Source: Nanobdellati archaeon
GTDB lineage: Archaea; EX4484-52; GLR71
Reading direction: 5' to 3'
NCBI GenBank assembly: GCA_019429005.1
Contig: JAHYJR010000002.1
Location: forward strand, 40,752-104,751
DNA: 64,000 nt
Below the pieces are notes generated by a model that saw nothing but the letters and a program-made list of their open reading frames with translations, was not told where the DNA came from and made no database searches. Positions 5,051-57,635 of this stretch are shown piece by piece; positions within the stretch are counted from its first letter, which is position 1; every line of letters starts with the position of its first letter. The translations under genes and the position numbers were made by a program.

Positions 5051-5131
5051 ATTATCAGTATATTTAATCTAGTTTATATATTTTCGTGATGTTCCCTATT
5101 TAAAACGATAATTTTATAACCCTTAAAATAT

Positions 5132-5671
5132 ATTAAATATTATATAAAACAAAGAGCGTTAATACTAGTAGATTTTGAAAATGAATGGATTAATAAAAAT
5201 TCAGATTATTTTGTTGGAGATATTTCAAAAGTTATTGAAAAGACAAATAAGCTTATTGATTTTTGTAGAAAAAACAATTATAAAATAATATTCATTGCAC
5301 ATATTGAAAAAGATTCAAATAATGTATTTGCAGAAAATTCTGAAAACATAAAAATTATTAACGAAATCAAAAGACACGATACCGATGTATTAATTAAAAA
5401 ATATAAAATTATTCCATTTTTTAAGACGTCTCTTGAAGAAGAACTTCAAAGTATTAATGAAATTATTGTTTGTGGGATCTTAACAAATTTATGTGTTAGA
5501 AGTCTTATTCAAGATGCATATGATAGAGATTTTGAAATAAAAGTAATTAAAGATTGTTGTGTCGCTTTTGATGACAAAACACAAGAATTTACATTTAAAG
5601 ATTTAAAGGATACAAGAGAAGAAATCGAATTCATAGATTTGAATGATTATATTGAATTCAATTTAAATTAG
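5132..5671 (+). CDS. Isochorismatase/cysteine hydrolase family protein with non-canonical start (ATT 5132 or ATA 5144). Not in the ORF track
   Basis: Open frame reads ...KQRALILVDFENEWINKNSDYF...IIVCGILTNLCVRSLIQDAYDRDFEIKVIKDCCVAF...*. Family motif ILVDFENEW...CGILTNLCV. No ATG/GTG/TTG in the expected N-terminal region. Confidence 0.6.
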   Translation: MKYYIKQRALILVDFENEWINKNSDYFVGDISKVIEKTNKLIDFCRKNNYKIIFIAHIEKDSNNVFAENSENIKIINEIKRHDTDVLIKKYKIIPFFKTSLEEELQSINEIIVCGILTNLCVRSLIQDAYDRDFEIKVIKDCCVAFDDKTQEFTFKDLKDTREEIEFIDLNDYIEFNLN

Positions 5672-11852: not shown

Positions 11853-12023
11853 TATAGATTTTTTCGTTTTTTATGTGAATTAATCTATACAACAGTTTTA
11901 TATATGAATGAGTCACAATTATATACATATAAATAAACAAATAAATACAAATCATTTCTATAATTATCAAAACATACTAATTATTTTAATTTTGTAAATT
12001 GTAAATATAAAACGGTGATATAA

Positions 12024-13346
12024 ATTAGATTTTATGCGATAGGCGGATATAATGAAGTCGGAAAAAATATGAGTGCTCTTGAAGTCGAAAATGAAGTAGT
12101 CATATTCGATATGGGTGTCCATATGGAAAAGTTAATTGAGCTTAATTCTGAAAAGCTCGATTATACACAGTTAAGTACTGAAAAACTTAAAGCACTTGGT
12201 GTTTTACCAAATGATACCATATTAAATGGTAAGAATGTTATTGCAATTGTAATTTCACACGGTCATCTAGATCATGTAAATGCTATACCAAAACTAGCTG
12301 AAAAATATAATTGTCCTATAATTGGAACACCATACACAATAAAGATTATTGAAAACATTCTTAGAGATCATGGAAAAAAGAAACTTTTAGACAATCTTGT
12401 AGCTATAGAATATGGTGATTTGGCAGAAATCTCAAAAAAAATTCAAATTGAACTTGTCAGAACAACACACAGCATACCAGAACCATCTTTAATTGTAGTA
12501 CACACAAAAGAAGGTATTGCAACAATTGCATATGATTATAAGCTTGATAACACCCCTGTTTTTGGAGAAAAACCGGATTACAAAAGAATCAAAGAAATAG
12601 GAAAAGAAGGTGTAAAACTCCACCTCTCTGAATGTGTCCACGTTGCAGATGAAACTAGAACACCATCTGAAGAAATTGCAAAACATCTTATGAAAGATTC
12701 AATTGACCGTGCATATGAAGGCAACACATCCGTTTTTGTAACAACGTTTGCATCTCATATTGCAAGATTAACTGGTATTATTGAAGCAAATCAAAATCGT
12801 AGAAAAATCGTATTTCTTGGAAGGTCCCTTGATAATTACACAAGACCTGCTAAAGAATTAAACCTTATTGATTTATCTGATATTACAATTGAAGGACGAC
12901 CTAAAGGTGTAACTAAAGTTTTAAGTGATGTTGAAAAAAATCCGACACAATATCTTGTAGTATGTACAGGTAATCAAGGTGAACCTAATTCGGTTTTATC
13001 AAGAATATCAAATAAACAATACACTTTCAATTTCAGAAAAGAAGATCAAGTAATTTTCTCTTCAACTGTAATACCAAGTCCACTCAATAGAGCTAGTAGA
13101 TATACACTTGAACGTAATCTTAAATCTCAAGGCGTGAGAATCATTAAAGATGTACATGTCTCAGGTCATGCTATGCGTGAAGATCATAGAGACCTTATAC
13201 GAATGCTTAACCCAACACATATTATACCATGCCACGGTGAAACAGAACGTCTTGCAAACTTTGCAAGTCTTGCTGAAGAAGAAGGTTATGTTTTAGGTAG
13301 TACTGTGCATATATTAACAAACGGACGATATATTGATCTGAAATAA
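12024..13346 (+). CDS. Archaeal RNase J-like beta-CASP ribonuclease, probably initiating at ATT 12024
   Basis: SHGHLDHV metallo-beta-lactamase motif, VSGHAMREDHRDLI and HIIPCHGE. In-frame upstream TAA-ATT-AGA-TTT-TAT-GCG-ATA-GGC-GGA-TAT-AAT-GAA-GTC-GGA-AAA-AAT-ATG gives the family N-terminus IRFYAIGGYNEVGKNM. GGTGAT SD 4 nt before ATT. Confidence 0.9.
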   Translation: MRFYAIGGYNEVGKNMSALEVENEVVIFDMGVHMEKLIELNSEKLDYTQLSTEKLKALGVLPNDTILNGKNVIAIVISHGHLDHVNAIPKLAEKYNCPIIGTPYTIKIIENILRDHGKKKLLDNLVAIEYGDLAEISKKIQIELVRTTHSIPEPSLIVVHTKEGIATIAYDYKLDNTPVFGEKPDYKRIKEIGKEGVKLHLSECVHVADETRTPSEEIAKHLMKDSIDRAYEGNTSVFVTTFASHIARLTGIIEANQNRRKIVFLGRSLDNYTRPAKELNLIDLSDITIEGRPKGVTKVLSDVEKNPTQYLVVCTGNQGEPNSVLSRISNKQYTFNFRKEDQVIFSSTVIPSPLNRASRYTLERNLKSQGVRIIKDVHVSGHAMREDHRDLIRMLNPTHIIPCHGETERLANFASLAEEEGYVLGSTVHILTNGRYIDLK

Positions 13347-17442: not shown

Positions 17443-17834
17443 TTAAATACAATATTCCAAAAAAACACATTTTTTATCTGTTCCAATCTCTTTAAAGCCC
17501 ATTGATTTCCATACTGTTAAAGCAATAATATTATTAGAATATACATTTGTTTTAATTATCTTAACATTATTTGTGTTGAACCAATTAAGAACCATATTAA
17601 ATAAGACTTTAACTATACCTTTATTTCGATATTCCAAAATGATAAAAGTACTCGATAAGATTCCAACATCATTTTTAATATAAGATTCACAAAAACCAAC
17701 TGGTTTATTATCTTCATAAGCGATAAGATAAAGTGTATTATTATCAGATATTGCTTTTTTAATATTTTGTTTATATTTTTTTATTGTTTCATCATTTTTA
17801 TCAAAAAGTTAGATCTTGACGAATAAAATACATA
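17443..17834 (-). pseudogene. GNAT acetyltransferase with a 5' frameshift
   Basis: Continuous frame ...DKNDETIKKYKQNIKKAISDNNTLYLIAYEDNKPVGFCESYIKNDVGILSSTFIILEYRNKGIVKVLFNMVLNWFNTNNVKIIKTNVYSNNIIALTVWKSMGFKEIGTDKKCVFLEYCI*. The 5' end (MYFIRQDLTF) is in another frame, joined at a T run. Confidence 0.7.
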
Positions 17835-28419: not shown

Positions 28420-29580
28420 TAGGAATGGCACTCATAAAGAAAAAAAATACCGTTCTACACTTGATTCTTATATATTTGAATCTGTAATAAGAAAAGCTTC
28501 AGAGGAAATTAATAAAAGATATTATATAAGATATTCATTCTTATTTGGTTCAACTGTACACAGAACAGCAACAAAAAAAGATTATACTCAAAATTGAAAA
28601 GATGATAGTGATATTGATTGGATAATAGTCACAGATAAATCCGAAGATGCCGAAAATATAAATAAATATTTGAATGATTTATCTGAAAAAGAACACATAA
28701 AAATAAATGCCAATGTATATGGCGAAAAAAATATGTTTTATGATTATCTTGATGATATTATATCTAAAAAAGATGGTTGTATTGTTATAGTTCCAGATAA
28801 AAATTATCAACTACTTTCAGAAACAGCCATAAAAACCTTTTTCCAAAAACATATCAGATTACATACAGATCCAGAAATACAACAAAAAATAGATAATGTC
28901 AAAAATATTATTGGATATAATATTAAACAAGATTAAACATTCAAAAGTTATAATAAACGTCTAAGAACTCAAACACACATAATTAATAAAAAAATATTAG
29001 ATAAATATCAAAAACAACTTATAAATAGGGACACAAAAGGTACAATCAATAATGCATACCCTTGGCATCCAGCATATATTGAACTATTTGAAAAAATGAC
29101 ACGTCGCGGTAAAAAAACATTCAAAAAATCAAAACTAAATGCAAACGACCCAATCCATCGAAAAATTGTTGACATTTACCAAAAAACTGGTGGCGACACT
29201 AATAATTTACCTCTTATACAAAAACAGAATGTTGAAAATCTGAAATAACAGCGAATCGAAGATGCAAGACAAAAAAGACTTGAAGATATTGAAAATGGTT
29301 ATTCAATAAGCTCAAGATATGAATAACCACTAATAGAACCTGAAAATATTATTAAGACCTAAATCATAGAAATTGATATTGAAAAAAATCATGGATGTTA
29401 GGGTCATGGAAATTTGAATTTGCCAAATTTACCCACTTGTAAATTTAAAGTACATCAAGGTAAATCAGATCAAAGATACAGAGCATAAATAACAATGATT
29501 GATGGTGTACCCGAAATGAACTGACGATTAATCAAATTAGACAATTGTACATTAATTGATTCACTATCTAGGCCCTAAAG
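28420..29580 (+). pseudogene. Degenerate region containing a nucleotidyltransferase-like pseudogene and following coding remnants
   Basis: YRSTLDSYIFESVIRKASEEINKRYYIRYSFLFGSTVHRTATKKDYTQN*KDDSDIDWIIVTDK... (GS...DxD pattern) interrupted by TGA, then TAA. Downstream NNAYPWHPAYIELFEKMTRRGKKTFKKS... and NLNLPNLPTCKFKVHQGKSDQRYRA*ITMIDGVPEMN* with many stops. Confidence 0.7.
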
Positions 29581-54069: not shown

Positions 54070-54224
54070 ACTAAAAATAATATAATTTTAATATTTTTAA
54101 ACCTTGCTAATCAATAACTTAATCAATAACTAATAGATTATTAAAATAAAAGAATTTAAAAGAACAAAAAGCATTAACAAAATATATAATATAATACTTT
54201 GATTAACTATTTACAGGTGTTTCT

Positions 54225-55439
54225 ATTTTAAAAATAAATAAACGACAATTAAAAACAATAATAAAAGAATTGAAATCGCTACGTGGTAGACATACCGAGT
54301 TTATAACAATATCAGTCCCAGCAGGATATAATCTTAATGAAATCTCAAACCAAATACGTCAAGAAGCAGGAACAGCATCAAATATTAAATCAAAAAGCAC
54401 AAGAAAAAATGTTGAAAGTGCGTTAGCAAAAATGGACCAAGCATTAAAATCCGTAGCTTATACACCTGAAAATGGTCTTTGTATGTATTGCGGAAATATT
54501 AGTGAACAAGAAGGCGCAACAGATTTAAAATTATGGATGTTTGAACCACCAGAACCAATTAATCTTAGATTATACAGATGCGAACAAGTATTTCTCCTAG
54601 ATCATCTTTATGGACTTATAGAAGAAAAAGACGTCTATGGTCTTATGGCCATAGATAGTACTGAAGCAAGTATTGGTTTTGTTATTGGTACAGGAATACA
54701 CATATCAACACACTTAACATCTCATGTACCTGGCAAAACAGGAAAAGGTGGACAAAGTGCACAAAGATTTGAACGTGTACGTTCAGGATTATTACTAACA
54801 TTTTTAAAACAAATTGGTGAAGCAGCTACCAAAATCTTTGAAGAAAACAAATATCTAAAAGGTATCATTATAGGTGGACCTGGACCTGTTAAAGATAAAT
54901 TTGCTGCAGGTGAATTCTTATCAAATTCACTAAAACGTAAAATTCTTGGTATAAAAGACATGTCATATTCGGGAAATGAAGGTATATATGATCTTGTAAA
55001 TATTTCTGAAGATATTTTAAGAAATTCAAAAATAACTGATGAAAAAGCAATTATAATCAAATTTTTTGAACATTTAAAAAAAGATGATGGTCTTGTTGTT
55101 TACGGTTTTGTTGAAATAAAATATGCACTTGAACTTGGTGCTGTTGATAAGATTTTAATATCTGAAGATTTACCAATAAAAAATTTCTTATTAACCTGCA
55201 ATTCATGTGATTATAAAGAAGAAAAAATTACAAAAGAAACATCATTACCATCACATTGTCCTAAATGTAAAAATCAATTAAATAAAACAGAAAAAACGGA
55301 TTTTATAGAAGAACTTGAAGAAATGGCTATTTCAAAAGGTGCATCTATACTTGAAGTAACTAGTGAATCACCTGAAGGACAACAATTTTTACAACTTGGT
55401 GGTATCGGTGCATTTTTAAGATATAAAATACAAGTATAA
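54225..55439 (+). CDS. prf1: Peptide chain release factor aRF1, probably initiating at ATT 54225
   Basis: NIKS (ASNIKSKSTRKNV), GGQ (KGGQSAQRFERVR), YRCEQVF. The in-frame 5' extension ILKINKRQLKTIIKELKSLRGRHTEF restores the N-terminal helix. AGGTG SD 5 nt before ATT. In-frame TAA at 54204. Confidence 0.93.
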   Translation: MLKINKRQLKTIIKELKSLRGRHTEFITISVPAGYNLNEISNQIRQEAGTASNIKSKSTRKNVESALAKMDQALKSVAYTPENGLCMYCGNISEQEGATDLKLWMFEPPEPINLRLYRCEQVFLLDHLYGLIEEKDVYGLMAIDSTEASIGFVIGTGIHISTHLTSHVPGKTGKGGQSAQRFERVRSGLLLTFLKQIGEAATKIFEENKYLKGIIIGGPGPVKDKFAAGEFLSNSLKRKILGIKDMSYSGNEGIYDLVNISEDILRNSKITDEKAIIIKFFEHLKKDDGLVVYGFVEIKYALELGAVDKILISEDLPIKNFLLTCNSCDYKEEKITKETSLPSHCPKCKNQLNKTEKTDFIEELEEMAISKGASILEVTSESPEGQQFLQLGGIGAFLRYKIQV

Positions 55440-56317: not shown

Positions 56318-56842
56318 TTAATTTTTTGATAATTTATTTTTATTTTTACCTTTATTGATTAATAAAACACAATCTGCTGAATTTTGCAATGCTTTAGAAA
56401 ATCCGGGTTCTTGTCCCATAATTATAACTTCTTTACCTTTAGCTTTAGCTAATTGTATAACTGGAAGGAAATCAGCATCTCTTGTTGCAAGAGCAATAAT
56501 ATCAAAATGTTTACTATATATAGCTTCTACAGCAGCCATAGCAACATATACATCAACATCACTTGCTATATCATTTTTCTTTTCACCAAAACCAACTATA
56601 GCTTCAAAACCTTCATTAGAAATAGCTTCAACAAGTTTTGCAGGTGCAAATTGATTCAAAAGAACTTTTGCCATCCGAACATTACCATACTCACCAAGGT
56701 CCTTCAAAATAACCCTAAGATCAATATTAAATTCCTTTCTAAGAAGATTTGGCCCATCTATAATAAGAGCAATATTTTTTCGTGTTTTAAACAGTTTTTT
56801 AAGAAATCCAAACATAATTATCACCGATTTATATACTAGCAT
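56318..56842 (-). CDS. NYN/PIN-like domain protein (LabA-like)
   Basis: NIALIIDGPNLLRKEFNIDLRVILKDLGEYGNVRMAKVLLNQ...DIASDVDVYVAMAAVEAIYSKHFDIIALATRDADFLPVIQLAKAKGKEVIIMG. True start MFGFLKK behind GGTGATAATT. Confidence 0.9.
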   Translation of the reverse strand: MLVYKSVIIMFGFLKKLFKTRKNIALIIDGPNLLRKEFNIDLRVILKDLGEYGNVRMAKVLLNQFAPAKLVEAISNEGFEAIVGFGEKKNDIASDVDVYVAMAAVEAIYSKHFDIIALATRDADFLPVIQLAKAKGKEVIIMGQEPGFSKALQNSADCVLLINKGKNKNKLSKN

Positions 56843-56933
56843 TATCCTAATATATATATAATAGAGATTATAAGATTCAATGAAACTTATAGTTTTAAAT
56901 ATATGTCGAAACTAAAAATAAAAATTCAAAATG

Positions 56934-57635
56934 TTAAAAAAAACGTGAAATCTTAAGCCATTTTTGTGCTTCATTCATCTTTTCAAATAATTTTTCATCA
57001 GCTTTAAAATCCTTATGATGAACAATCTGACTTTTTCCAGTATATTTTGAATCATGTACAATATGAAGCATCTCATGATAAAGCACATAATCAAGAACAA
57101 ATTTAGGTATCTTTAATGAATCTAAAGTTTTACTTATTGAGATTAAATGTCTTGCAGGGTCATAATGTCCAAATTTACGATATGTCTTAATAGTACTCCA
57201 TGTCAATTTAGGTATTGCAAGCACACTTTCAAAATATTTATTATTTATACTTTCAAAACATTCATTAAGATTATATACAGTACCAATAGGATTTACTTTA
57301 ATATTATTTACACGATTTATACGCAGAACCATACATTTTTTTGATATATATTCCGAATTTACCCACGATTTATAAATCGTATTTGTTATTTTATTAACAG
57401 GTAATCTCTTTATCTTTGAGAAAAGTATAATCGCAAGACTCTTTATAACCTCTTTTGGTGCATCATCAAGAATATCGCTGATTCGTATAAAATATTTATT
57501 TTCTTTTTTCTTTATCGTACTTTTAATTGTAGAATACTTATAGAAACGTATAACTAATTGAATATTTTGATTATTACCAAGTTCAAAATATACATCTTCA
57601 AAGATTTTTGAAAGCTCAATAACATCCATACCCAA
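56934..57635 (-). CDS. SprT/YgjP-like zinc metalloprotease domain protein
   Basis: LDYVLYHEMLHIVHDSKYTGKSQIVHHKDFKADEKLF (HExxH...H). Confidence 0.8.
   Translation of the reverse strand: MGMDVIELSKIFEDVYFELGNNQNIQLVIRFYKYSTIKSTIKKKENKYFIRISDILDDAPKEVIKSLAIILFSKIKRLPVNKITNTIYKSWVNSEYISKKCMVLRINRVNNIKVNPIGTVYNLNECFESINNKYFESVLAIPKLTWSTIKTYRKFGHYDPARHLISISKTLDSLKIPKFVLDYVLYHEMLHIVHDSKYTGKSQIVHHKDFKADEKLFEKMNEAQKWLKISRFF

Follow-up and report, generated by a model that had tools for sequence, protein, structure and literature searches.

The DNA analyzed here, a 64-kb window from the genome of a DPANN-type archaeon (GCA_019429005.1, contig JAHYJR010000002.1, positions 40,752 to 104,751), carries a gene for RNase J (rnj) whose reading frame opens at an ATT codon (Table 1). 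The frame runs for 440 codons without a stop (12024 to 13343). Upstream, a GGTGAT element is followed by ATAA (12020 to 12023), the last three bases of which form an in-frame TAA, and then by the ATT. Downstream of the ATT, the codons read AGA TTT TAT GCG ATA GGC GGA TAT AAT GAA GTC GGA AAA AAT ATG, the last of these being the ATG at 12069. Since the in-frame TAA directly precedes the ATT, no start upstream of it is possible; an in-frame GTG does lie at 12015, within the Shine-Dalgarno (SD) sequence, but TAA ends that frame two codons on. No in-frame ATG, GTG or TTG is present between the stop at 12021 and the ATG at 12069, as an earlier reading of this DNA made without database searches (the sequence-only reading) had noticed and the sequence itself confirms.

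Table 1 Positions of the features discussed, in window coordinates unless a contig is named
Feature	Position	Strand	Evidence or remark
Shine-Dalgarno GGTGAT of rnj	12014..12019	+	spacing 4 nt to ATT; pairs with own-genome 16S rRNA 3' end
In-frame stop TAA abutting the start	12021..12023	+	direct sequence
ATT start codon of RNase J (rnj), very likely real	12024..12026	+	ATG in all 27 same-phylum orthologues
RNase J CDS, 440 aa, stop TAA 13344-13346	12024..13346	+	TIGR00649; PDB 5haa; AlphaFold pLDDT 94
Conserved N-terminus RFYAIGGYNEVGKNM (strand beta-1 and invariant GG-x-x-EVG-x-NM)	12027..12071	+	alignment, AlphaFold
Internal ATG, codon 16, chosen by mechanical ORF calling; without SD	12069..12071	+	
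aRF1 SD AGGTG, 5 nt before ATT	54215..54219	+	
aRF1 (prf1), apparent ATT start	54225..55439	+	TIGR03676, 441 bits
nrdG2-type radical SAM activase, apparent ATT start	contig 11 (C11) 70247-70960; L043:10247-10960	minus	TIGR02495, 191 bits
AstE/AspA-like hydrolase, apparent ATC start	contig 10 (C10) 56518-57423; L087:7161-8066		

In this genome the 16S rRNA gene (L039) has a 3' end complementary to AGGAGGTGAT, so GGTGAT constitutes a six-base SD. The most frequent combination of SD and spacing at ordinary starts of this genome is GTGAT at 4 nt (n = 16), which bears out the earlier remark that the rnj spacing is that of ATG genes. By way of background, SD sequences of at least 6 bases lie 3 to 9 nt before 0.36% of positions (n = 984,416), and SD sequences of 6 or more bases lie exactly 4 nt before 0.06% of positions. 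Given that the rnj start is set independently by homology, placement of this SD by chance is unlikely (P about 0.004).

RNase J N-terminus and its start codon in relatives

The encoded protein scores 423 bits against the TIGR00649 profile (curated cut-off, 400) over residues 1 to 439, with residue 1 at profile position 1, and both PF22505 and PF07521 are matched. Its best PDB match is 5haa, an archaeal RNase J (E = 2e-115), with the match beginning at residue 3. The catalytic HxHxDH motif and the later beta-CASP/RMMBL histidines are invariant in the alignment (H79, H81, D83, H84, H149, D171, H382 and H404), as are, at the N-terminus, Y4, G8, E11, V12, G13, N15 and M16 among 22 aligned proteins. 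In the AlphaFold model (overall pLDDT, 94), residues 2 to 7 form a strand of the core sheet (pLDDT, 93).

A start at the ATG at 12069 would delete strand beta-1 together with the invariant Y4, G8, E11-V12-G13 and N15, in agreement with the sequence-only reading, which held that this ATG removes the conserved N-terminus. The rival view, that the cell actually makes a short RNase J from ATG 12069 or some other internal codon, has in its favor that this ATG is the first standard start. We nevertheless regard this as extremely improbable, since no SD precedes ATG 12069, the GG-x-x-EVG-x-N motif would be lost with the strand, and Met16 is an internal residue in every RNase J orthologue compared. 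Because ATG 12069 lacks an SD and cuts into the conserved N-terminus, the AUU is the only credible rnj start, barring a base error in the metagenome-assembled genome (MAG).

To compare rnj starts codon by codon, orthologues were drawn from 34 genomes of the phylum (class and order searches give the same 34) and from GTDB contigs; the window's own genome was left out of the 27 phylum orthologues. The comparison of relatives' N-termini that the sequence-only reading had proposed gives ATG at the codon aligned to the ATT in 27/27 cases, including same-family proteins that are 64 to 65% identical (L003 to L005). The closest layout is that of L009, which reads GGTGATTAA-ATG-AGA-TTT-TAT-GCA, versus GGTGATATAA-ATT-AGA-TTT-TAT-GCG in the window. 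In two deep archaeal relatives (L027 and L030), rnj starts one codon earlier, at the position of the TAA in the window. The position of the rnj start, its SD, its homology and the lack of alternative starts are thus direct observations, and a RNase J start at ATT 12024, as originally proposed behind GGTGAT, is very likely real given the orthologue alignment, the SD and the genome's own 16S rRNA.

The uniform ATG of the relatives also fits an assembly or sequencing error, in which case the true codon would be ATG and the start ordinary. Only one substitution (position 12026) separates the two readings, and the sequence comes from a single MAG, with no genome of the same genus among the relatives compared. 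We consider such an error unlikely, however, as the assembly bears no visible sign of many errors (93.6% complete, 15 contigs) and further genes, described below, bear on the same question. The DNA had no match in viral contigs. In genus g3 (G002 C21:51430-53818 and G006 C114:1554-4844), RNase J adjoins two RrnaAD (KsgA-like) genes, an arrangement not seen in the window.

Other SD-led ATT and ATC starts in the genome

We scanned 492 kb, or 45% of the genome (the window plus contigs 10 and 11), for SD-led ATT, ATC or ATA codons whose first ATG, GTG or TTG lies at least 12 codons downstream. Four homology-backed SD-led ATT or ATC starts were found in these 492 kb: those of rnj, aRF1, nrdG2 and an AstE/AspA-like hydrolase. 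The aRF1 leader reads AGGTG-TTTCT-ATT (54225), and the earliest standard start, TTG 54270, falls within the conserved first helix. The nrdG2 start region, AGAGGTAATACAAA-ATT-AGC with GAGGT as its SD, overlaps the stop codon of the thioredoxin-like gene upstream; no standard start precedes the conserved residues, and the TIGR02495 profile match begins inside the part that would be lost at the first standard start. For the AstE/AspA-like hydrolase, the start region is TGTGATATAA-ATC-GAG, and its leader (GTGAT-ATAA-ATC) is nearly identical to that of rnj. Its frame opens at the ATC immediately after TAA, with GTGATATAA, and the first standard start is 90 codons in. That three genes besides rnj independently show an SD with ATT or ATC and no alternative argues against a base error at 12026.

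SD-led ATH matches at window positions 28598 and 48057 and at C10 127177 were without homology support and were left uncounted. The frames at window positions 28598-29245 and 17446-17808, nucleotidyltransferase-like and GNAT, are interrupted or N-truncated and probably represent decaying genes. Separately, an isochorismatase-fold frame (window 5120-5668, + strand) has no ATG, GTG or TTG for 172 codons; ATT 5132 and ATA 5144 are candidates for a normal N-terminus, and neither has an SD.

No convincing case of a comparable SD-led ATT or ATC start was found in 394 kb of the relatives G010 and G002. In regions upstream of the first standard start, an SD precedes 7/211 ATH codons versus 10/1202 other codons (P = 0.008, Fisher test), and the count for ATH in this genome differs from that in the two relatives (7/211 versus 1/210; P = 0.03). 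When only homology-backed genes are counted, the comparison is 4/431 ORFs in this genome versus 0/374 in the relatives (P = 0.08). The excess of SD-led ATH starts over the relatives therefore looks real but is modest. Together, the four genes suggest that this genome tolerates AUU and AUC starts well above the usual rate.

A recurrent ATT-stop pattern at the start of aRF1

Of the 26 aRF1 genes that could be read in the phylum, 16 (L058 to L063, L065 to L067, L069, L071, L074 to L076, L080 and L081) carry an SD (GGTG or similar), 5 to 7 nucleotides, and then ATT followed by TAA or TAG, with the aRF1 frame at +1. At the window site (54210-54260), as in L068, the ATT is directly in frame with no stop after it. 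Read in the aRF1 frame, the pattern becomes NNA-TTT-AAC or NNA-TTT-AGC and is conserved down to the nucleotides. Although its A falls at a wobble position (TTA, GCA, ATA or GTA), it never varies, and neither does the TTT, even in G010, where TTT accounts for just 46% of Phe codons. A C follows the stop in 14/16 genes; in G002, for comparison, AAC makes up 24% of Asn codons and AGC makes up 8% of Ser codons. In most of the 16 genes, no ATG lies close to the start. Several genomes could use a GTG in the aRF1 frame instead of AUU, although L060, L066, L069, L071 and L081 have no in-frame GTG there. In G014, aRF1 (L072) has an ATC start with GGTGATTCT, and the sister genome G019 (L070) has ATG.

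In bacterial prfB, an SD-like element and a shift codon precede a stop codon followed by C, and reading continues at +1. The aRF1 layout is similar, but the AUU start would here double as the shift codon. The pattern may possibly reflect a release factor that regulates its own synthesis through +1 recoding at the AUU. We know of no release-factor autoregulation described in archaea, and a literature search found none; if confirmed, the aRF1 pattern would be an archaeal example. It also supports the idea that AUU works as a start codon in this lineage and, given that the aRF1 ATT is common to relatives from independent assemblies, weighs further against a base error. Whether the phylum as a whole uses AUU as a real and partly regulated class of start, comprising about 1% of this genome's genes (those for RNase J, aRF1, nrdG2 and the AstE-like protein) together with aRF1 autoregulation by +1 recoding in 16 relatives, is a more doubtful proposition, which we put forward tentatively.

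Origin of the rnj AUU start and comparison with known systems

The simplest account of the AUU and AUC starts would be drift to near-cognate codons rescued by the SD. The rnj ancestor would have had an ordinary SD-led AUG that became AUU by a G-to-T substitution at its third base. The six-base SD, still intact and at the favored spacing, would hold the 30S subunit over the AUU, and Met-tRNAi (anticodon CAU) would decode it with a third-position mismatch. The predicted product is the full-length 440-aa RNase J with the N-terminus (M)RFYAIGGYNEVGK, probably made at reduced yield. The same drift may have affected a few other genes of the genome (aRF1, nrdG2 and the AstE/AspA-like hydrolase), with an AT-rich genome (29% GC), strong SD sequences and little selection against lower yield as the simplest background. 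For rnj, we infer that initiation occurs in the cell at the AUU, that the first residue is Met, that the yield is lowered and that drift, not selection, produced the codon.

Several changes in the initiation machinery were considered as causes of the AUU starts. An altered initiator tRNA is ruled out, as the tRNAi of this genome is canonical (A1-U72, GGG/CCC stem, CAU). Loss of KsgA/Dim1 has been reported to raise non-AUG initiation (PMC7897474), and its loss is ruled out by the presence of the gene in the genome; loss of aIF1 is ruled out in the same way. The basic loop of aIF1 reads RFRK here (L148), a Gly-to-Arg change relative to the RFGK of most relatives (L140 to L149 and L181 to L189). 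The same change is found in G001, G002 and G006, and G013 has Lys at this position. Because G002 and G006 carry the change and yet start rnj with ATG, it explains nothing alone.

The sequence-only reading had raised discriminated or autoregulated initiation of rnj. On this reading, the AUU would be selected and regulated as in infC or pcnB, with aIF1 or RNase J tuning rnj translation. It draws on E. coli, in which AUU starts reduce pcnB expression and mediate infC autoregulation (PMC1780047, PMC9764084, PMC5472188), and on the RFRK loop of aIF1. The facts of this parallel are right and lowered expression is a reasonable part of it, but the parallel is only an analogy, being bacterial and involving other factors. 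The autoregulatory part did not hold up: the ATT at rnj is confined to this genome, with the codon conserved in no sister, and the aIF1 change is shared with relatives whose rnj starts with ATG. The rnj leader is unstructured, folding less well than shuffled versions of it (fold z-score, +1.34; 186/200 shuffles equal or better it), and we found no feedback element at rnj. The remaining genes with ATT or ATC starts are functionally unrelated, which argues for general tolerance, not RNase J-specific control. A regulatory role of the rnj AUU is thus not supported, and we consider it highly improbable; drift to a near-cognate codon is the reading that we prefer.

In 36 prokaryote genome triplets, a change to AUU was seen at only 1 of 61,358 ancestral AUG starts (PMC5622118), a frequency that makes several in one small genome unusual. 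Rare AUU starts are already known, and the interest of the present ones lies mainly in there being several in one archaeal genome and in the aRF1 pattern. A conserved archaeal enzyme gene that lacks an AUG but has an SD offers a natural test of how strictly archaeal initiation (aIF1, tRNAi and SD) requires AUG. Standard gene callers cut such genes short or overlook them; RNase J here would lose its first strand in the annotation. Our literature search turned up no report of a non-AUG start for an archaeal RNase J. Compared with the Methanolobus psychrophilus RNase J (PDB 5haa), which belongs to the same enzyme family and has the same N-terminal GGYNE-[VM]-G-[RK]-NM motif, the window protein is ordinary, and its initiation codon alone is unusual.

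Among characterized AUU starts, that of E. coli pcnB, encoding poly(A) polymerase I, likewise lies on an RNA-metabolism gene, and it keeps expression low (PMC9764084, PMC1780047). The ribosome-binding site of pcnB is poor (PMC9764084), whereas rnj has a strong six-base SD, and where pcnB initiates with IF3, rnj would use an archaeal 30S subunit and aIF1. E. coli infC is, like rnj, a chromosomal gene with an AUU start. There, feedback depends on the rejection of AUU by IF3 (PMC5472188); RNase J, in contrast, does not belong to the initiation factors, and we found no evidence of feedback for it. For lepA of Borrelia burgdorferi and Bacillus licheniformis, the full-length conserved protein is obtained only if AUU is accepted (PMC1780047). 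Those cases, inferred by comparative annotation, are bacterial and isolated, whereas here several AUU and AUC starts appear within one archaeal genome.
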